Source: Lysobacteraceae bacterium
GTDB lineage: Bacteria > Pseudomonadota > Gammaproteobacteria > Xanthomonadales > Xanthomonadaceae
Direction of reading: 5' to 3'
Assembly (NCBI GenBank): GCA_004297225.1
Contig: SCUI01000013.1
Location: forward strand, 248,001-312,000
Length of the DNA: 64,000 nucleotides
Positions 6,955 to 62,403 of this stretch are shown piece by piece (positions within the stretch are counted from its first letter, which is position 1; every line of letters starts with the position of its first letter). The notes under the pieces were generated by a model. That model had not been told where the DNA came from, did no database searches, and was given only the letters and a program-made list of their open reading frames with translations. A program made the translations under genes and the position numbers.

Positions 6955-7407
6955 ATGACCGCGTACCTGATCGCCAAGACCGCCCACCTCGTGTTCGTGA
7001 TCGCATGGATGGCGGCCTTGTTCTACCTGCCGCGGATCCTGATCAACCTGGTCGAGGCCGGCGACGACGCGAACGTGCGTGCGCGCCTGCTGCTGATGGG
7101 GCGGCGCCTCTACCGCTTCGGCCACGTGATGTTCGGGTTGTCGTTCGTGCTCGGCCTGTTGCTGTGGCTGGGCTACCGCGTGCTCGACGGCTTCCCGGCC
7201 ATGGTGGCGGCGGGCAGCGGTTGGCTGCACGCCAAGCTGCTGCTGGTGGCGCTGCTGTTCACCGGCTGGGTGGTGAGCGGCCGCTGGCTCGCGCGCGCGG
7301 CGCGCGGTGGCGCGCTGCCGTCGTCGACGATGCTGCGGGTGTTCAACGAAGTGCCGGTGCTGCTGCTGGCCGTCATCGTCTGGCTGGTGCTGGCGAAGCC
7401 GTTCTGA
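6955..7407 (+). CDS. HemJ/CopD-like membrane protein, probable protoporphyrinogen IX oxidase
   Basis: This 150-residue, four-helix membrane protein carries the hallmarks of the HemJ (UPF0093) group: a histidine in the first helix (KTAH, H11), FYLPRILI after it, and GWLHAKLLL with K94 in a later helix. HemJ converts protoporphyrinogen IX to protoporphyrin IX in heme synthesis. CopD-family naming is also common for xanthomonad relatives. The start at 6955 has a GGAG element seven bases upstream and gives the expected N-terminus. The last 35 bases overlap the convergent phosphatase gene. Confidence 0.8.
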   Translation: MTAYLIAKTAHLVFVIAWMAALFYLPRILINLVEAGDDANVRARLLLMGRRLYRFGHVMFGLSFVLGLLLWLGYRVLDGFPAMVAAGSGWLHAKLLLVALLFTGWVVSGRWLARAARGGALPSSTMLRVFNEVPVLLLAVIVWLVLAKPF

Positions 7408-9028
7408 AATTCGCGGGGTCCGGCAACTCGACGGGGATGCCGTTGCCGTCGCAATAGCCCTTGTCGCACAGCGCGCCGCGAAGGCGCGGGCTGGCCTGCA
7501 GCAGCAGGTGGAAGATCGTGTTCTGCTCGATGCTGCCGCGCACCGCCGCGGCCCCGGGGCCGCGGGCCCAGACGCCGACGTCGTCGCCACCGTGGGATTC
7601 CGCCGTCAGCGGGATCGCGGCCTCCTGCTTGTAGTCGGCCGCGGCGGTGTCGACGCCGCCGAGGTCCGGCCGGCTGTCCCCGTCACGATGGCCCGGGCCG
7701 TTGGCGTAGCCCAGCGTGGTGTAGGGCAGCCCGTTGGCGTCCGTCGCCAGCGTGCCGGGTTCCGCAACCGTGTCGGCCTTGCCCAGGATCGGATTGCCGC
7801 GCGAGGGATATCCGGCGAAGGTCAGCGTGTGCGCGTGGTCGGCGGTGACGATGATCAGCGTGTCGTCGGCCGAGGTCATCGCGTCGGCCGCCGCCACCGC
7901 CTCGGACATGGCGATGGTCTCGTCCAGCGCGCGGTAGGCGTTGCCGGCATGGTGCGCGTAGTCGATCAGCGCGCCTTCGACCAGCAGCACGTAGCCGTCG
8001 GGGTCGCCTTGCAGGCGCTCGATCGCCGCGCGCGTCATCGCGGCCAGCGTCGGTTCGCCGGCGCGGTCGTCGCCGCGTTCGTGCACGTAATGCATGACGC
8101 TGGGCTCGAACAAGCCGAGCAGCGGCGCATCCTTCGGCGCCGCCTCCAGTTGCGCGCCATTCCAGGCATAGGCGCCGCGCGGGTGTCGCTGTCGCCATTC
8201 CGCGATCAGGTCGCGCCCGTCCTGGCGCCTGCCGTGCTGGTCGGGGTATTCGGGATCGACCTGGCTGGCGGGCATGAAGTTGCCGCGGCCGCCGCCGAGC
8301 AGCACGTCCGGTCCCGTGCCGTAAGGCGACTCGACCATCTGCCGGGCGATGTCGGTGCAGCCGTGGGCGCCGGCCTTGGCGATGGCGACGTCGTCCTCCC
8401 AGTTGCGCTCCGCCGAGTGGGCGAAGGTCGCCGCGGGCGTGGCATGGGTGACGCGCGTCGTGGTGACGACGCCGGTGGCCATGCCGTTGGCGGCGGCGAG
8501 TTCCCACAGGGTCAACAGCGGCGCCTGCAGTGCGCCCTCGCAATCGCCGCGCAGCGGGCCGGGGCCTACGCCGATCACCCCGTAACGCGTCTTCGCCCCG
8601 GTCGCCATCGCCGTCATCGTGCCGGCGGAGTCCGGGGTCTGCGCGTCGGTGTTGTAGGTGCGGCTGATCGCGGTGTGCCCGAAGCGCTCCCACGCCAGCT
8701 GCGTGCCTTCACCCGGGGCGCCCTGCCGTTGCCCGGCGAGGATCCGCGCCGCGGAGACCGTCGGCAGGCTCATGCCGTCGCCGACGAACAGGATCAGGTT
8801 GCGCGCCTTGCCCGCGGGGCCGCCGCGCGCGGCCGCCTGCGCGGCGCCGTTGCGGAACCACCATGCCGCGGTTTCACCCTCCGGGTGGACGACGGCCGGC
8901 ACCGGCACGACCACCCCGGTCGCTGCCGCCGGGGACCCGGCGTCGAACGTCGGCCGGCTGGCGCACCCGGCGAGCGCGGTGGCGAACAATACGGAACAGA
9001 ACGTTGCAGCAATCGGATTCTGGCGCAT
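7373..9028 (-). CDS. Alkaline phosphatase, PhoA family lipoprotein
   Basis: This 551-residue protein begins with a lipoprotein signal whose lipobox LAGC gives Cys22. Family motifs are clear: metal-binding FVGDGMS (D84), the nucleophile in TPDSAGTMTA (S134 after D133), VTHATPAATFAH, a long insert with LLVEGALIDYAHHAG, and TADHAHTLTF. It hydrolyses phosphate monoesters at the outer or inner membrane face. At 551 residues it is longer than E. coli PhoA. Only 23 bases separate its start from the divergent symporter gene. Confidence 0.95.
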   Translation of the reverse strand: MRQNPIAATFCSVLFATALAGCASRPTFDAGSPAAATGVVVPVPAVVHPEGETAAWWFRNGAAQAAARGGPAGKARNLILFVGDGMSLPTVSAARILAGQRQGAPGEGTQLAWERFGHTAISRTYNTDAQTPDSAGTMTAMATGAKTRYGVIGVGPGPLRGDCEGALQAPLLTLWELAAANGMATGVVTTTRVTHATPAATFAHSAERNWEDDVAIAKAGAHGCTDIARQMVESPYGTGPDVLLGGGRGNFMPASQVDPEYPDQHGRRQDGRDLIAEWRQRHPRGAYAWNGAQLEAAPKDAPLLGLFEPSVMHYVHERGDDRAGEPTLAAMTRAAIERLQGDPDGYVLLVEGALIDYAHHAGNAYRALDETIAMSEAVAAADAMTSADDTLIIVTADHAHTLTFAGYPSRGNPILGKADTVAEPGTLATDANGLPYTTLGYANGPGHRDGDSRPDLGGVDTAAADYKQEAAIPLTAESHGGDDVGVWARGPGAAAVRGSIEQNTIFHLLLQASPRLRGALCDKGYCDGNGIPVELPDPANFRTASPAPARR

Positions 9029-9039
9029 GACGCCAATGG

Positions 9040-9045
9040 TATCTT
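9040..9045 (+). promoter_or_regulatory. -10-like hexamer TATCTT, six bases before the symporter ATG
   Basis: TATCTT ends exactly six bases before ATG 9052, so transcription would start at or next to the A of the start codon. No good -35 hexamer is visible 16-18 bases upstream. The same spacing occurs before surE, folP and the pirin gene. Confidence 0.5.
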
Positions 9046-9051
9046 TCGAAG

Positions 9052-10407
9052 ATGACGCTCGTCTCCGCGTGGTTCCGCATCCCGTTCTGGCAACGAGTGC
9101 TCGCAGGCTTCGTGCTCGGCGCGCTGGCCGGCTGGATCGTCGGTCCTGCCTCGGAAACCTGGTTCGGCCCGCTCGGCGACCTCTACGTCACCCTGATCAA
9201 GCTGATCGCGGCTCCGCTGGTGTTCTTCGCGGTGATCCACGCCGTGTCCTCGCTGCACGGGCAGAAATCGATGGCGGCGCTGGGCGGGCGCACCTTCGCC
9301 TGGTTCGCGGGCACCGCGGTGCTGGCGGTCGGCGTCGGCCTGCTGGTGGGCACCATCCTGCAGCCGGGCATCGGCGTGGGCGCGCTGTCGATCGCCTCGG
9401 ACTACGTGCCCAGGACCGTGCCCGATCCGGTGCGGGTGCTGCTGGACGTGGTGCCGTCGAACGCGTTCTACGCGCTGACCGGCATCGGCACCACCACCAA
9501 CGCCGCCGGCGAGACCGTGCTCGCGGCCGACAAGGGCTCGATCCTGCCCGTGATCTTCATCGCCGCGCTGGTCGGATTCGCGATGGTCAAGCTCGGCGAC
9601 CGCGTCGCCGGCGCGCGCAAGCTCGCCGGCGAAGCCAGCGAGCTGATGATCCAGGTCACCCGCTTCGTGCTCGAGGTGACGCCGATCGGCACTTTCGGCC
9701 TGATCGCCGCGCTGGTGGGCTCCTACGGCTTCGAGAAGCTGCTGCCGCTGGGCAGCTTCGTGATCGCGCTGTACCTGGCCTGCGCGATCCACATCGTGGT
9801 CGTCTACGGCGGGCTGTTGCTGGTGCACGGGTTGAACCCGCTGAAGTTCTTCCGCGGCGCGGCCTCGGGCATGCAGGTGGCATTTGTCAGCTCCTCCAGC
9901 TTCGCCTCGATGCCGGCGGCGCTGCGCAGCGTCACCCACAACCTGGGCGTGGACCGCGACTACGCCGCCTTCGCCGTGCCGCTGGGCGCGAGCATCAAGA
10001 TGGACGGCTGCGGCGCGATCTACCCGGCGCTGGCGGCGGTCTTCATCTCGCAATACACCGGCGTGCCGATGACCGCCGACCAGTACTTCGTGGTGATGAT
10101 CGCATCGGTGCTGGGCAGCTTCGGTACCGCCGGTGTGCCGGGCACGGCGGTGGTGATGGCGACGGTGGTGTTGAGCGCCGCCGGCCTGCCGCTGGAGGCG
10201 ATCGGCTACCTGTACGCCATCGACCGGGTGCTGGACATGATGCGGACGATGACCAACGTCACCGGGCAGATGCTGGTGCCGGTGCTGGTGGCACGCGAGA
10301 CCGGCCTGCTGGACCGCGAGGTCTACGAGGCCGCCTCCAGCAACATCGGCCTGGCCGCGGGCGAGGCTGGCGAACCGCACCCGGTACGCGACGCCGGCCA
10401 GGCCTGA
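9052..10407 (+). CDS. Dicarboxylate/amino acid:cation symporter (DAACS family)
   Basis: This 451-residue transporter starts WFRIPFWQRVLAGFVLGAL, typical of GltP/DctA proteins. Characteristic segments are the serine-rich reentrant loop SSSSFASMPAAL, the KMDGCGAIYPAL segment in place of the family's NMDGT, and GTAGVPGTAVVM. It imports C4-dicarboxylates or acidic amino acids with Na+ or H+ across the inner membrane. The threonine-to-cysteine change in the substrate motif could affect specificity. It diverges from the phosphatase gene and may have a leaderless mRNA. Confidence 0.94.
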   Translation: MTLVSAWFRIPFWQRVLAGFVLGALAGWIVGPASETWFGPLGDLYVTLIKLIAAPLVFFAVIHAVSSLHGQKSMAALGGRTFAWFAGTAVLAVGVGLLVGTILQPGIGVGALSIASDYVPRTVPDPVRVLLDVVPSNAFYALTGIGTTTNAAGETVLAADKGSILPVIFIAALVGFAMVKLGDRVAGARKLAGEASELMIQVTRFVLEVTPIGTFGLIAALVGSYGFEKLLPLGSFVIALYLACAIHIVVVYGGLLLVHGLNPLKFFRGAASGMQVAFVSSSSFASMPAALRSVTHNLGVDRDYAAFAVPLGASIKMDGCGAIYPALAAVFISQYTGVPMTADQYFVVMIASVLGSFGTAGVPGTAVVMATVVLSAAGLPLEAIGYLYAIDRVLDMMRTMTNVTGQMLVPVLVARETGLLDREVYEAASSNIGLAAGEAGEPHPVRDAGQA

Positions 10408-30050: not shown

Positions 30051-31072
30051 GCGCCGTGGACTGGCCGGCGGCGCATGGCGCGCCGGTCCTGTCGGCGCGG
30101 ATCCGGACCACGCCCGAGGATTTCAGGGTCGAGGAACTCGATGCGTTCGAGCCCAGCGGCGCGGGCGAACACCTGCTGCTCAGCATCGAAAAGCGCGGGA
30201 TGAACACGGCGTTCGCGGCGAAGCTGCTGGCGCAATGGGCCAGCGTCGGCGAGGCCGCGGTCGGCTACGCCGGGCTGAAGGACCGGCACGCGGTCACGGT
30301 GCAACGTTTCAGCGTCCAATTGCCCGGTCGCGAGGCCCCGGACGTGGCAGCGCTGGAAGCTAACGAGGGACTACGGGTGCTGGCGATAGCGCGGCACTCA
30401 CGCAAGCTCCCGCGCGGCGCGCTGGCCGGCAACCGCTTCGTGCTGGTGCTGCGCGAGGTCGACGGCGCGCGCGACGCGATCGAGCGACGCCTGCGGGCGA
30501 TCGCCTCGCGCGGCGTGCCCAACTACTTCGGCGAGCAGCGCTTCGGCCGCGGCGGCGACAACGTCGGCAACGCGCTGGCGATGTTCGGCGGGCGCCGCGT
30601 CGCCCGCGAGCAGCGCACCCACCTGCTGTCGGCGGCGCGTTCGCAACTGTTCAACCGCGTGCTGGGTGCGCGCGTGGCGGCAGGGAACTGGGATGGCGCG
30701 CTGGACGGCGAGGTGTGGATGCTCGACGGCAGCCGCAGCGTGTTCGGCCCGCAGCCGTTCGACGACATCCTGGCCGGACGCTTGGCGGCGTTCGACATCC
30801 ATCCCACCGCGCCGCTGTGGGGTCGCGGCGCGTTGCGCAGCGAATCCGGCGCCGCGGCGCTCGAGCACGAGGCACTGGCGGATCCGGAATCGCTGGCGCT
30901 GCGCGCGGGGCTGGAAGCGGCCGGGTTGAAGCAGGAGCGCCGCGCCACGCGCCTGCGTCCGCAGGGACTGGAGTGGGCGTGGCCCGACGACGCGGTGCTG
31001 GAACTGCGCTTCGGCCTGCCGCCAGGGGCATATGCCACCACGCTGCTAGCGGAGCTGGGGGCGCTTCAGTAA
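30047..31072 (+). CDS. truD: tRNA pseudouridine(13) synthase
   Basis: This 341-residue enzyme forms pseudouridine 13 in tRNA-Glu. The catalytic Asp is D79 in [14 protein letters not shown]. Further TruD motifs are [19 protein letters not shown] and [12 protein letters not shown]. The start is GTG 30047, which overlaps the ispF stop; a second GTG nine bases on is less likely. The last 27 bases overlap the convergent smr gene. Confidence 0.96.
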
Positions 31073-31606
31073 CACCAGCACGGCGCCCGCACCGCCCTGC
31101 GCCGCCGGCGCCGATGCGAACGCGAGCACGTCGCCACGCTGGCGCAGCATGCGGTCCACCAGGTTCTTCAGCACCGGCACGCCGCTGTCCGAATGCAGGC
31201 CCTTGCCGTGGACGATGCGCACGCAACCCAGGCCCGCGCCGCGCGCGCCGGCGAGGAAGGCGCGCAGCAGCGCTTCGGCCTGCGCGGTATCGCTACAGTG
31301 CAGGTCGAGTTCGTCCTGCGCGGCGTACTGGCCCTTGCGCAGGCGTTGCAGCACGCGGCCGGGGACCTCATCGCGGCGGTAGCAGAGCGCGTCGCCCGCT
31401 TCGAGAGTGTCGCCGGCCATCGCGCGGCGGAATTCGCCGACGGCTTCCTCATGGTCGCGCGCCGCCATCCGCGGCACCGCGCGGGGCGGGGCCTTGCGCG
31501 GCGGCTCGGGAACCGGCGGCAACTCGCGCACCGGGCCGATCGCATCGCGGAACAGGGCGGCGTCGTCGACGTCGTTTCCTGGCGGCGGCTCGCGGTTTTT
31601 ACCCAT
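31046..31606 (-). CDS. Smr domain protein
   Basis: This 186-residue protein has an N-terminal linker rich in Pro and Arg and a C-terminal Smr domain: [21 protein letters not shown], then [22 protein letters not shown]. The DLH and HGKG motifs are typical of Smr nucleases or mRNA-binding proteins such as SmrA/SmrB. ATG 31606 follows a clean break from upstream frames. It is convergent with truD, overlapping it by 27 bases, and diverges from surE with a 21-base gap. Confidence 0.93.
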
Positions 31607-31615
31607 GCCCCACGC

Positions 31616-31621
31616 TATCAT
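31616..31621 (+). promoter_or_regulatory. -10-like hexamer TATCAT, six bases before the surE ATG
   Basis: TATCAT ends six bases before ATG 31628, so the surE mRNA would be leaderless or nearly so. There is no Shine-Dalgarno sequence in the 21-base gap to smr. Confidence 0.5.
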
Positions 31622-31627
31622 GGCGAC

Positions 31628-32425
31628 ATGCGCGTACTGGTCTGCAACGACGACGGCGTCGACGCCCCTGGCATCCAGGTCCTTGCCGCCGGCCTGCGTG
31701 CCGCCGGCCACGACGTGATCGTGGTCGCGCCGGATCGCGACCGTTCCGGCGCCAGCAATTCGCTGACCCTGGACATGCCGGTCCGCGTGGTCCGCCTGGA
31801 CGAACACACCTGGCGCGTGCACGGCACGCCGACCGACTGCGTGCACGTGGCCATCACCGGCATGCTCGAGCAGGAGCCGGACATGGTGGTGTCCGGGATC
31901 AACAACACCGCCAACCTCGGCGATGACGTGATCTATTCGGGCACCGTCGCCGCGGCGATGGAAGGGCGCTTCCTCGGCCTGCCCGCGGTCGCGGTGTCGC
32001 TGGCCACCGCCGACCGCCTGCCCAACCACTACGAAACCGCCGCGCGCGCCGTGGTCGGGATCATCGCCCGGCTGAAGACCGATCCGCTGCCGGCCGACAC
32101 GATCCTCAACGTCAACGTGCCGGACCTGCCCTGGAGCGACGTGCGCGGGGTCGAAGTCGCGCGCCTGGGCAACCGCCACCGTGCCGAACCCTGCGTGCAG
32201 CAGGAGGATCCGCGCGGCCGCAAGTGGTGGTGGATCGGGCCCGCCGGACCGGAACTGGACTCGGGGCCGGGCACCGATTTCCACGCGGTGCGCACCGGCC
32301 ACATCTCGATCACTCCGATCCAGGTCGACCTGACCCGCTACCAGGCGCTGGAACAGGTGGCCAGCTGGGTCGGCGGGCTGGAAGCCTCGCTCCGCGCGCA
32401 ACCGCCCCGCGGGGAGGCGGCATGA
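31628..32425 (+). CDS. surE: 5'/3'-nucleotidase SurE
   Basis: This 265-residue survival protein hydrolyses nucleoside monophosphates and short polyphosphates. Metal ligands lie in [10 protein letters not shown] (D8, D9), [11 protein letters not shown] and [21 protein letters not shown]. It heads the surE-pcm-yqaA-nlpD run, in which each junction through yqaA overlaps by four bases. This order matches stress-survival clusters of gammaproteobacteria. Confidence 0.97.
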
Positions 32426-33120: not shown

Positions 33121-33728
33121 AGCTGTTCGGGCCGCTCTACGAGCGCGCACTGGCGTGGGCCCGTCACCGCAACGCGCCGGCGCTGCTGACCCTGCTCAGT
33201 TTCGCCGAGGCGGTGTTCTTCCCGGTGGTCCCGGAAATCATGCTGGCGCCGATGGCGCTGGCGCAGCCGCGGCGCGCGTTCCACTTCGCCACGCTGAGCC
33301 TCGCCGGCTCGCTGGTCGGTGCGCTGGTCGGCTATTTCCTCGGCCATTACGCCTTCGAACTGGTCAAGCCGCTGTTTGCCGAACTCGGCTGGCTGCACAA
33401 GATAAACGAGCAGGTGGTGTACCTGCGCGAGATCGCGATCGAGTCGCCGTGGAAGGCGTTCTGGATCCTGGTGCTGGCCGGTTTCACCCCGATCCCCCTG
33501 AAGTTCTTCACCTGGGCTTCCGGCATCGTCGGCGTGCCCCTGTTCCCGTTCATGGCCAGCATGTTCGTCGGCCGCGGCAAGCGCGTGTATCTGGTCGCCG
33601 GCGCGATCCGCCTCGGCGGCGCCCGCGCCGAGGCGGCACTGCGCCGCTGGATCGAGCCGCTTGGCTGGATCGCCACGGTGTTGCTGCTCGGCGCCATCGG
33701 CTACCTTGTCTGGCATGCGTACGCATGA
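33117..33728 (+). CDS. YqaA-type VTT/DedA-like membrane protein
   Basis: This 203-residue inner-membrane protein starts at TTG 33117 (TTGA overlap with pcm). It has the SNARE-associated/VTT pattern: [20 protein letters not shown], a glycine-rich YFLGHYAFE, and [18 protein letters not shown]. Relatives are lipid-handling or stress proteins, and YqaA is usual next to pcm and nlpD in xanthomonads. The function is inferred from the family only. Confidence 0.92.
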
Positions 33729-37969: not shown

Positions 37970-37975
37970 TATGCT
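37970..37975 (+). promoter_or_regulatory. -10-like hexamer TATGCT, six bases before the folP ATG
   Basis: TATGCT ends exactly six bases before ATG 37982, the same geometry as before surE, the symporter and pirin. No Shine-Dalgarno sequence lies in between. Confidence 0.5.
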
Positions 37976-37981
37976 TTCGGG

Positions 37982-38881
37982 ATGTTCGACACGTCCCCCC
38001 AACTCGACTGCGCCGGTCGGATCCTGAAGCTCGACCGCCCGCGCGTCATGGGTATCGTCAACGTCACTCCCGATTCGTTCTCCGACGGCGGCGAGCACGC
38101 CAGCCTCGAGGACGCGGTCGCCCACGGCCTGAAGCTGGCAGGCGAGGGCGCGGACATCCTCGACGTCGGTGGCGAATCGACCCGGCCGGGCGCGGCGGAA
38201 GTGCCGCTCGAGGAAGAATTGCGCCGCGTCGTGCCGGTGGTCACCCAGCTGGCGCGCGAAACCGGCCTGCCGGTGAGCGTCGACACCTCGAAGCCGGAAG
38301 TCATGCGCGCCGCGGTCGAGGCCGGCGCCGGCATGATCAACGACGTCTACGCATTGCGCCGCGAGGGCGCGCTCGACACCGCCGCGCGACTGGGCGTGCC
38401 GGTGGTGCTGATGCACATGCTCGGCGAGCCGCGCTCGATGCAGCAGGACCCGCGCTACGACGACGTCGTCGCCGAGGTCCACCGCTTCCTCGCCGAGCGC
38501 GTCTTCGCCGCGGAGATGGGCGGCATCGACAAGAAGCGGATCGTGGTCGATCCGGGCTTCGGCTTCGGCAAGACGCGCGAGCACAACCTCGTGCTGCTGG
38601 CGCAGCTTGAGCGCTTCACCGAGCTCGGGGTGCCGCTGCTCGCCGGCCTGTCGCGCAAGAAGACCATCGGCGAGCTCACCGGCCGCCAGGATCCGCGGGA
38701 ACGCGTCCACGGTTCGGTCGCCGCGCACCTGGTCGCCGCCCAGCGCGGCGCGAAGTTGCTGCGCGTGCACGACGTCGCCGCCACCGTGGACGCGCTCAAG
38801 GTCTGGAACGCGGTCGCCGCGCAGCCGATGCCGCGGCCGAAGACCGCGACCCCGGCAATCCGCTGGCCCGACGACGAGTGA
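37982..38881 (+). CDS. folP: Dihydropteroate synthase
   Basis: This 299-residue TIM-barrel enzyme joins p-aminobenzoate to dihydropterin pyrophosphate in folate synthesis and is the sulfonamide target. Motifs are VMGIVNVTPDSFSDGG, LDVGGESTRPGA, SVDTSKPEVM, MINDVYAL, DPGFGFGKTREHN and the late GSVAAHLVAA. The position after ftsH is conserved in gammaproteobacteria, but here a palindrome and 224 bases separate them. glmM, often next, is absent. Confidence 0.97.
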   Translation: MFDTSPQLDCAGRILKLDRPRVMGIVNVTPDSFSDGGEHASLEDAVAHGLKLAGEGADILDVGGESTRPGAAEVPLEEELRRVVPVVTQLARETGLPVSVDTSKPEVMRAAVEAGAGMINDVYALRREGALDTAARLGVPVVLMHMLGEPRSMQQDPRYDDVVAEVHRFLAERVFAAEMGGIDKKRIVVDPGFGFGKTREHNLVLLAQLERFTELGVPLLAGLSRKKTIGELTGRQDPRERVHGSVAAHLVAAQRGAKLLRVHDVAATVDALKVWNAVAAQPMPRPKTATPAIRWPDDE

Positions 38882-58251: not shown

Positions 58252-61200
<2,949 letters not shown>

Positions 61201-61227: not shown

Positions 61228-61334
61228 CCCTCTGTCCTTTTGCCTGAGAGTTTCGAAGCGCTGGGGGAGGTGCGCGCTTCTTGCCCCTTCGGCGCCGGTT
61301 GGGCCGCGGACGGCCTTCCGGTCTCTCCAGAGTG
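61228..61334 (-). promoter_or_regulatory. Glycine riboswitch, aptamer II (proximal)
   Basis: On the minus strand the conserved parts of a gcvT-type glycine aptamer are all present: GGAGAGACC (61320-61328), CCGAAGGGGCAA (61281-61292) and CTCTCAGGCAAAAGG-ACAGAG (61230-61250). It ends 28 bases before the gcvP ATG. Confidence 0.93.
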
Positions 61335-61341
61335 TGCACAC

Positions 61342-61430
61342 GCGGCGGTGGTTGGGGCCTGAGCGATTACGGGCGTTTGCGCCTTCGGCAGCGACCCGAC
61401 CCATGCGGGCATGGGGGCCGCTTCTCCCAC
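61342..61430 (-). promoter_or_regulatory. Glycine riboswitch, aptamer I (distal)
   Basis: The first aptamer has GGAGAAG (61421-61427), CCGAAGGCGCAA (61377-61388) and CTCAGGCC (61356-61363). It is shorter and less canonical than aptamer II, with about eight bases linking the two. Tandem aptamers commonly act together to turn on gcv genes when glycine is high. Confidence 0.85.
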
Positions 61431-61447
61431 CGCGTGCTTGCCCGCCA

Positions 61448-61488: not shown

Positions 61489-62391
61489 TCAGGACATCGG
61501 CTCGGGGGGGGCCGTTTCCGGGTCCCCGGGCAACGGGATCCATTCCCCGTGGTCCAGGTCGGGCAGCTTCATCCGGCCGGCACGCCAGTCCGCCTTCGCC
61601 TGCTCGATGCGCTCCTTCGAGGATGAGACGAAGTTCCACTCGATGAAGCGCTGGCCGACGGGTTCGCCACCCAGCAGCATCAGCACCGCCGGCCCGCAGG
61701 TGGCCGTCAGCTGCACCGGTTTGCCGGCGGCGAACACCAGCATCCGTCCTTCCTCATGGCAGCTGCCGTCGGCCTCGATGCTGCCGCGGACGACATAGGC
61801 GGCGCGCTCGGGTGCCAACGCGGGCAGGGTGATGCTCGCGCCTTCCTCGAGTTCGCAATGCAGGTAGAACAACGGCGAATGCGTGCGCACCGGCGAGGCC
61901 AGGCCGAAGGCGCTGCCGGCGACCAGGCGCCCACGCACGCCGGCTTCGTCGAATTCCGGCAACTGCGCGCCCGCGTAATGGCTGAATTCCGGGTCGGTCT
62001 CCTCTGCCTCGGTGGGTAGCGCCACCCAGGCCTGGATACCGTGCATCGGGCCGCCGTGCTCGCGCGCCTGTTCGAAGCGTTCCGAATGGGTGATGCCGCG
62101 GCCGGCGGTCATCCAGTTCACCTCGCCCGGGCGGATCGGCTGCGCCGAACCGACGCTGTCGCGGTGCATCATCTCGCCGGCGAACAGGTAGGTGATCGTC
62201 GACAGGCCGATGTGCGGGTGCGGGCGCACGTCCATCGAGCGCGGGATACCCGGCGGGAAATCGACCGGGCCGATGTGGTCGAAGAAGATGAACGGCCCGA
62301 CCATCCGCTGCAGCCGGAACGGCAGCACGCGACCGACCTCGAAGCCGCCGCCGAGGTCCTTGCGCCGTTGTTCGATGATCCGTTCGACCAT
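61489..62391 (-). CDS. Pirin family protein
   Basis: This 300-residue bicupin has the pirin signatures FIFFDHIGPVDFPPG, MDVRPHPHIGLSTITYLFAGEMMHRDS and GEVNWMTAGRGITHSER, which hold the metal-binding histidines and glutamate. Bacterial pirins act as quercetinases or as regulators of central metabolism. The start is ATG 62391; the very long frame upstream is antisense to the transporter gene. TATTAT lies six bases before the ATG. Confidence 0.95.
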   Translation of the reverse strand: MVERIIEQRRKDLGGGFEVGRVLPFRLQRMVGPFIFFDHIGPVDFPPGIPRSMDVRPHPHIGLSTITYLFAGEMMHRDSVGSAQPIRPGEVNWMTAGRGITHSERFEQAREHGGPMHGIQAWVALPTEAEETDPEFSHYAGAQLPEFDEAGVRGRLVAGSAFGLASPVRTHSPLFYLHCELEEGASITLPALAPERAAYVVRGSIEADGSCHEEGRMLVFAAGKPVQLTATCGPAVLMLLGGEPVGQRFIEWNFVSSSKERIEQAKADWRAGRMKLPDLDHGEWIPLPGDPETAPPEPMS

Positions 62392-62397
62392 GCCCCG

Positions 62398-62403
62398 ATA
62401 ATA
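62398..62403 (-). promoter_or_regulatory. -10-like hexamer TATTAT, six bases before the pirin ATG
   Basis: TATTAT on the minus strand ends six bases before ATG 62391. With CGGGGC in between there is no real Shine-Dalgarno spacing, so the mRNA may be leaderless. Confidence 0.5.

Follow-up and report, generated by a model that had tools for sequence, protein, structure and literature searches.

Genes and hexamers in the window

The window, a 64,000-nucleotide part of contig C27 in a genome of 2.52 Mb (229 contigs), contains four genes, for a sodium:dicarboxylate symporter, SurE, FolP and a pirin, in which a TATNNT hexamer stands exactly six bases before ATG (Table 1). All four sites lie where a preliminary description of this DNA had placed them. 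Its statement that none of the four genes has a usable Shine-Dalgarno (SD) sequence agrees with the absence of GGAG, GAGG, AGGA and AAGG upstream of each, and parE does carry the GACAAT-N6-ATG reported there, a hexamer that is not TANNNT. Among the 58 window starts examined, TATNNT occurs at spacer 6 in four and TANNNT at spacers 5-7 in eight. Orthologs whose alignment begins at residue 1 support the four starts (Table 1).

Two of the four sites prove to be head-to-head arrangements, both of which the preliminary description had missed. The symporter gene faces an alkaline phosphatase gene, whose product has a lipoprotein-like N-terminus with an LAGC that we take to be the lipobox, in the layout CAT(9026-9028)-N7-ATGG[TA]TCTT-N6-ATG(9052), and surE faces an Smr-domain gene in the layout CAT(31604-31606)-N5-ACGC[TA]TCAT-N6-ATG(31628). 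At each site the central TA forms the first two bases of both hexamers, with the starts 5-7 bases away. The candidate Smr box is the weaker one, spacer 5 being little enriched, and the start of the Smr gene is uncertain, as a second in-frame ATG lies upstream of it, inside the surE box.

Elsewhere in the window, the called starts at 33715 (+) and 6911 (−) have TANNNT at spacer 7 (TACCTT and TAGGAT, respectively), the latter together with an SD-like match. Two tandem glycine riboswitch aptamers lie at 61228-61439 (minus strand), upstream of a gene called at 58252-61200.

Table 1. Putative -10 boxes and the genes they precede in the window.
Feature	Position	Strand	Remarks
TATCTT, putative -10 box of symporter gene	9040..9045	+	6 bases 5' of ATG 9052; hexamer to ATG 9040-9054; based on spacer statistics
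TACCAT, putative -10 box of divergent alkaline phosphatase gene	9036..9041	−	7 bases 5' of its ATG at 9028; TA 9040-9041 common with symporter box
Sodium:dicarboxylate symporter (SDF) gene, probably leaderless	9052..10407	+	8 of 9 compared ortholog rows align from residue 1
Alkaline phosphatase gene, divergent partner of symporter, probably leaderless	7373..9028	−	PF00245 (Pfam)
TATCAT, putative -10 box of surE	31616..31621	+	6 bases 5' of ATG 31628; hexamer to ATG 31616-31630; in many orthologs present but further upstream
TAGCGT, candidate -10 box of Smr gene	31612..31617	−	5 bases 5' of its ATG at 31606; TA 31616-31617 common with surE box
surE, probably leaderless	31628..32425	+	PF01975; alignment from residue 1 in all 100 orthologs compared
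Smr-domain gene, divergent from surE	31046..31606	−	PF01713
TATGCT, putative -10 box of folP	37970..37975	+	hexamer to ATG 37970-37984; L063 has the identical box and spacer, L066 has TATCCT
folP (pterin-binding enzyme), probably leaderless	37982..38881	+	PF00809; 13 of 21 compared rows align from residue 1
TATTAT, putative -10 box of pirin gene	62398..62403	−	hexamer to ATG 62403-62389, minus
Pirin gene, probably leaderless	61489..62391	−	PF02678; 8 of 15 compared rows align from residue 1; the only one of these 8 starts with a box at spacer 6

A hexamer enriched at one distance from the start codon

In an 864-kb sample of the genome, made up of 40 stretches and the window, TATNNT precedes ATG 28 times at spacer 6 and 0-6 times at each of the 25 other spacers from 0 to 25, and no comparable TATNNT peak appears by spacer for GTG or TTG starts in the same sample. 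The whole genome holds 45 matches at spacer 6 versus 11 at spacer 9. The preliminary description had named a lack of enrichment at offset six as refuting its reading; the enrichment is found both in the 864 kb by spacer and, for spacers 6 and 9, genome-wide. TATNNT is thus a real signal at spacer 6, but as a definition it is too narrow, the actual signal being TANNNT, with a hexamer logo of TA(G/T)A(A/C)T.

TANNNT stands at spacer 6 in 60 of the 755 starts examined (759 genes called), so that about one gene in twelve (about 8%) has the core box at the position expected for a leaderless gene; 13 starts have it at spacer 7 and four at spacer 5, and each of the remaining spacers from 0 to 25 has 0-8. 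When the upstream 30 bases were shuffled by mononucleotide for 200 rounds, TANNNT at a fixed offset occurred 2.4 times on average and at most seven times, as against the 60 observed, and with the spacer-6 peak in the 864 kb this makes the signal more than chance. The enrichment falls mainly on open reading frames of at least 81 codons in the 864-kb sample (67 at spacer 6 versus 1-21 at other spacers), but shorter frames too have a slight excess (19 versus 0-15 elsewhere). Across spacers 26-31 TANNNT rises again, broadly, to 6-14 per spacer, which fits the promoters of leadered genes. The gene caller set starts by position-specific GC and used no upstream signal; it misplaced some starts, namely those of alkaline phosphatase and of surE, the latter also in the congener G001, and these we corrected from orthologs and the N-terminus.

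The genes with the box at spacer 6 differ from the others in several further properties, the comparison group of 682 excluding the 13 genes with a box at spacer 7. An SD sequence is present in two of the 60 versus 250 of the 682, and ATG is the start codon in 57 of 60 versus 550 of 682. The upstream gene lies on the opposite strand in half of the class (30/60 versus 199/682), and a same-strand upstream gene at a gap of 5 bases or less is found once in 60, versus 160 times in 682. No -35 element was detected in the leaderless set (best match 2.25 versus 2.22 at control positions), nor was one clearly found in 48 leadered candidates. What is directly observed is the box at its fixed offset, the scarcity of SD sequences and the biases in gene context and towards ATG. 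The depletion of SD sequences and of tight operons and the preference for ATG fit leaderless mRNAs, and together with the enrichment at offset six they bear out the proposal in the preliminary description that a set of genes here is translated leaderless. A leaderless class, TANNNT-N6-ATG, is thus well supported by inference in this genome, and its mRNA 5' ends would lie at the A of ATG.

Divergent genes that share one TA step

Overlapping opposite-strand boxes, one mark of a bidirectional promoter, are found at window positions 9026-9054 and 31604-31630 and in 25 of 28 queG/nnr loci (below). Spacers of 21-23 bases with a similar layout recur in the Xanthomonas/Lysobacter family, with a start-to-start distance, taken from the start codons, of 22-24. 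In 1.66 Mb from three congeners (G000, the window's own genome, G001 and G002), a scan for the TA-centred layout that required ATG and an open reading frame of at least 80 codons on both sides gave eight hits over spacers 2-12, seven of them at spacers 5-7; counted as independent loci these are five of six, the surE and amidase loci having been counted twice as G000/G001 orthologs. The other fifteen centre dinucleotides together gave 17 hits at spacers 5-7 versus seven for TA, a dinucleotide that is rare in DNA of 69-70% GC.

In these three genomes 14 divergent pairs have a called gap of 13-40 bases, and every one of them has TANNNT at spacers 5-7 on at least one side, as does one of the next three, at gaps 41, 42 and 45; among the 14, the called gap of 13 at G001 surE is really the surE/Smr site. 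Of two distant genomes, G016 has one such pair at gap 13-40, with no TANNNT at spacers 5-7 (0/1), and G014 has no such pair. At the divergent pair 177749/177775 of contig C27 (gap 25), opposite-strand boxes at spacers 5 and 6 adjoin and the TA is not common to both. A gap histogram of all CAT..ATG pairs was swamped by overlapping frames and was set aside.

Searched without an open reading frame filter across 36 family genomes, the strict pattern CAT-N6-ANNNTANNNT-N6-ATG was matched 29 times, in 20 of them, as against two matches for the reversed control and 14 for the AT-centred control; in 24 genomes outside the family it has 28 matches versus 66 for the AT-centred control, so only the family shows an excess. 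When 20 of the 57 matches were cut out, both open reading frames reached at least 100 codons at nine of ten family loci and at three of ten non-family loci. The window's own genome lacks the strict 6/6 pattern with two ATG starts; its head-to-head sites have spacers of 5/6, 7/6 or 6/7, or a GTG start.

The queG/nnr locus

The recurring pair queG/nnr was surveyed in 30 family genomes, from 58 genomes with a match, taking the box with the spacer closest to 6 in a range of 150 bases, a choice that leans towards short spacers. TATACT or TATAAT precedes queG in 30 of 30 loci, at spacer 6 in 14, 7 in three, 8 in two, 9 in nine and 10 in two. On the nnr side, aligned in 28 loci, TAGAAT or TAAAAT stands at spacer 6 in 19, 7 in five, 8 in three and 3 in one (L308, where a same-frame ATG stands also at spacer 6). 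The TA is common to both boxes in the 25 of 28 loci noted above, in all of which both genes are aligned. In the remaining three (L305, L321 and L334) the boxes are 57-79 bases apart, each 6-7 bases from its own ATG. The same core occurs in the window's own genome (L306), where one gene has ATG at spacer 7 and its partner has GTG at spacer 6.

In 11 of the 30 loci queG starts 9-10 bases from the box and is not strictly leaderless on that side. The start is GTG in ten of these and ATG in the eleventh (L318). ATC or ATT stands just 5' of the GTG in six of the ten (L308, L313, L314, L320, L329 and L331), which would mean that the mRNA has a leader of three bases or that translation starts, at the leaderless position, on a codon other than ATG.

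Stop codons that open the next box

Among same-strand neighbours pooled from G000, G001 and G002, which may share orthologs, a TAA or TAG that ends nine bases before the next start opens a hexamer with T as its sixth base in nine of 11 cases. At ten bases this holds for three of eight, and at 6-8 and 11-13 bases for none of 24 (9/11 versus 0/24, Fisher, 8e-7). At the nine-base distance the stop codon thus supplies the first three bases of a TANNNT box. The distant genomes G014 and G016 have the fusion at this distance in neither of two cases (0/2), and it occurs in none of the window's four genes.

Occurrence and turnover among relatives

Counts at spacer 6 were compared in other genomes with those at spacer 9, which together with the AT-centred pattern supplemented the reversed-pattern control. 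Eight congeners, as whole genomes, have 25-46 matches at spacer 6 versus 6-11 at spacer 9. The corresponding counts are 53/20, 22/5, 41/40 and 39/20 in four genomes of the same family (G009 to G012), and in eight genomes of other families (G013 to G020) they are 40/21, 91/93, 113/72, 18/6, 72/49, 81/38, 973/961 and 45/23, in that order, a ratio of 1.0-3.0. In 400-kb samples, TANNNT-N6 precedes 23 of 340 starts in G001, 12 of 344 in G002, none of 247 in G014 and three of 332 in G016.

At the level of single genes, the leaderless state of the four window genes is poorly conserved and turns over quickly between relatives. For surE we compared 20 of the 21 loci of one search and all of the best 80 of 571 SurE relatives, which are 76-86% identical and carry names including Luteimonas, Lysobacter, Vulcaniibacterium, Pseudoxanthomonas, Stenotrophomonas and Xanthomonas and so assign the organism to the Xanthomonas/Lysobacter family; for folP, the symporter and pirin, with distant paralogs left out, 21, nine and 15 of 21 loci, respectively. 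The leaderless counts use only those rows whose alignment begins at residue 1, the window gene among them: TANNNT stands at spacer 6-7 in four of 100 for surE, three of 13 for folP, three of eight for the symporter and one of eight for pirin. The four surE rows come from the window genome, from two congeners and, as L060, from an AT-rich genome that does not belong to the Xanthomonas family. An SD sequence is present in 43 of the 100 surE rows, and the nearest TATNNT lies at spacers 22-24 in 29 of the 100, Xanthomonas and Pseudoxanthomonas included, of which 26 have an SD-like tetramer, so that many lineages appear to keep the -10 box and to differ in the leader. Of 38 ortholog pairs between G000 and G001, the four that are leaderless in G000 have spacer 6 (three) or 7 (one) in G001; of 84 pairs between G000 and G002, six are leaderless in G000, and of these one is leaderless and three have an SD sequence in G002.

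In two Thermomonas genomes (L153, L201) and two metagenome-assembled genomes (L166, L197), TATCAT-N6-ATG opens a short frame before surE, whose TGA overlaps the surE ATG (TGATG). Read by eye, this frame resembles a leaderless leader peptide coupled to surE, and a coupled mini-ORF was likewise read by eye at the symporter of L087. As a class such coupled mini-ORFs were rejected, with one case at spacer 6 versus 0-2 at other spacers in the 864 kb.

Discussion

RNA polymerase starts transcription about seven bases past the last T of the -10 element. At these genes that position falls on the A of ATG, and the mRNA would begin with AUG. Very probably, then, TANNNT acts here as a sigma-70-type -10 element fused to the start codon and specifies leaderless mRNAs, and the spacers with a shared TA are bidirectional promoters for two of them. 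Polymerase would open the box and start at the A of ATG, giving an mRNA with neither leader nor SD sequence, whose 5'-terminal AUG would be engaged directly by the ribosome. At the two head-to-head window sites and the recurring family loci, one TA step would belong to a -10 box on each strand, the two boxes overlapping, and would make the 21-23-base spacer a promoter for both mRNAs. For the family as a whole we regard a broader arrangement as likely: a set of conserved divergent pairs is driven from one symmetric box (two -10 elements sharing TA, flanked by two discriminators of about six bases, in a spacer of about 22 bases) that gives two leaderless mRNAs, and in tandem genes the upstream TAA or TAG provides the TA of the next promoter, intergenic DNA thus being at its lower limit.

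The boxes might be real promoters from which transcription starts a few bases away, leaving a leader of 1-5 bases or beginning inside the gene with use of a downstream start codon. The 13 genes with a box at spacer 7 and the queG spacers of 9-10 bases in 11 of 30 loci point this way, but the peak is sharp at spacer 6, with four genes at 5 and those 13 at 7, and orthologs aligned from residue 1 keep the same ATG, the exceptions among 100 surE genes being ATA (L185) and GTG (L059). On balance we think this improbable. It is a little less probable still that the symmetric cores ATTCTATACT and ATGCTAGCAT are transcription factor operators, even though ATGCTAGCAT is perfectly palindromic and both cores recur across genera: different sites carry unrelated genes, discriminator bases vary where spacing mostly holds, and the halves separate in three of 28 queG/nnr loci, each staying close to its own ATG. 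This last pattern, which comes from queG/nnr and not from the ATGCTAGCAT locus, speaks in favour of two -10 boxes that can be separated, and against a single operator. Chance in GC-rich DNA, for which it might be said that the four sites were picked after the fact, is refuted at the class level by the shuffles and has a negligible probability. The preferred reading remains that of -10 boxes fused to the start codon.

The class itself is in print. Zheng 2011 (PMC3160421) describes leaderless genes with TANNNT about 12 bases before the start, a hexamer and offset identical to those found here, and names Xanthomonadales, with Legionellales, as the gamma-proteobacteria richest in leaderless genes, in line with the remark in the preliminary description that leaderless mRNAs are known in xanthomonads; we did not find head-to-head sharing or stop-codon fusion described in the available text of that report. 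In Deinococcus-Thermus (PMC12340547) TANNNT likewise adjoins the open reading frame and acts as a -10 element, its substitution lowering expression and transcription, and it precedes on average about 30% of open reading frames as against about 8% here; the terms bidirectional, divergent, head-to-head and stop codon are absent from the main text. The leaderless transcriptome of M. tuberculosis (PMC3898074) shares with our set a TANNNT without a conserved -35 element. Its divergent pair Rv1129c/Rv1130 is leaderless on both sides and closely juxtaposed divergent promoters are called common there, but in the available text of that report we did not find one TA shared by two leaderless genes. For bidirectional promoters with a symmetric -10 element (PMC12825309, PMC10268837), pairs of transcription start sites 18 bp apart are the commonest, and 10 and 23 bp are also common. 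The start-to-start distance of 22-24 deduced here from start codons matches the 23-bp class (PMC12825309); the word leaderless is absent from the main texts of both reports, whereas here both transcripts would start at the A of a start codon. The head-to-head layout therefore seems less known than the leaderless class, and the sharing of one box by two leaderless genes may be new, a literature search, mostly at title level, having returned no such title.

With these findings, leaderless expression in gamma-proteobacteria, so far a statistical signal, would be tied to named loci that are open to testing. The surE genes of relatives, in which the -10 box persists with or without an SD leader, suggest how leadered expression might give way to leaderless expression. 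Two features known separately, the symmetry of bidirectional -10 elements and leaderless mRNA, would be joined in one conserved architecture, and a single box that drives back-to-back genes in both directions would be a highly compact means of expressing two genes. Since one polymerase can bind such a box in only one direction at a time, pairs that share a TA should show mutually exclusive expression.
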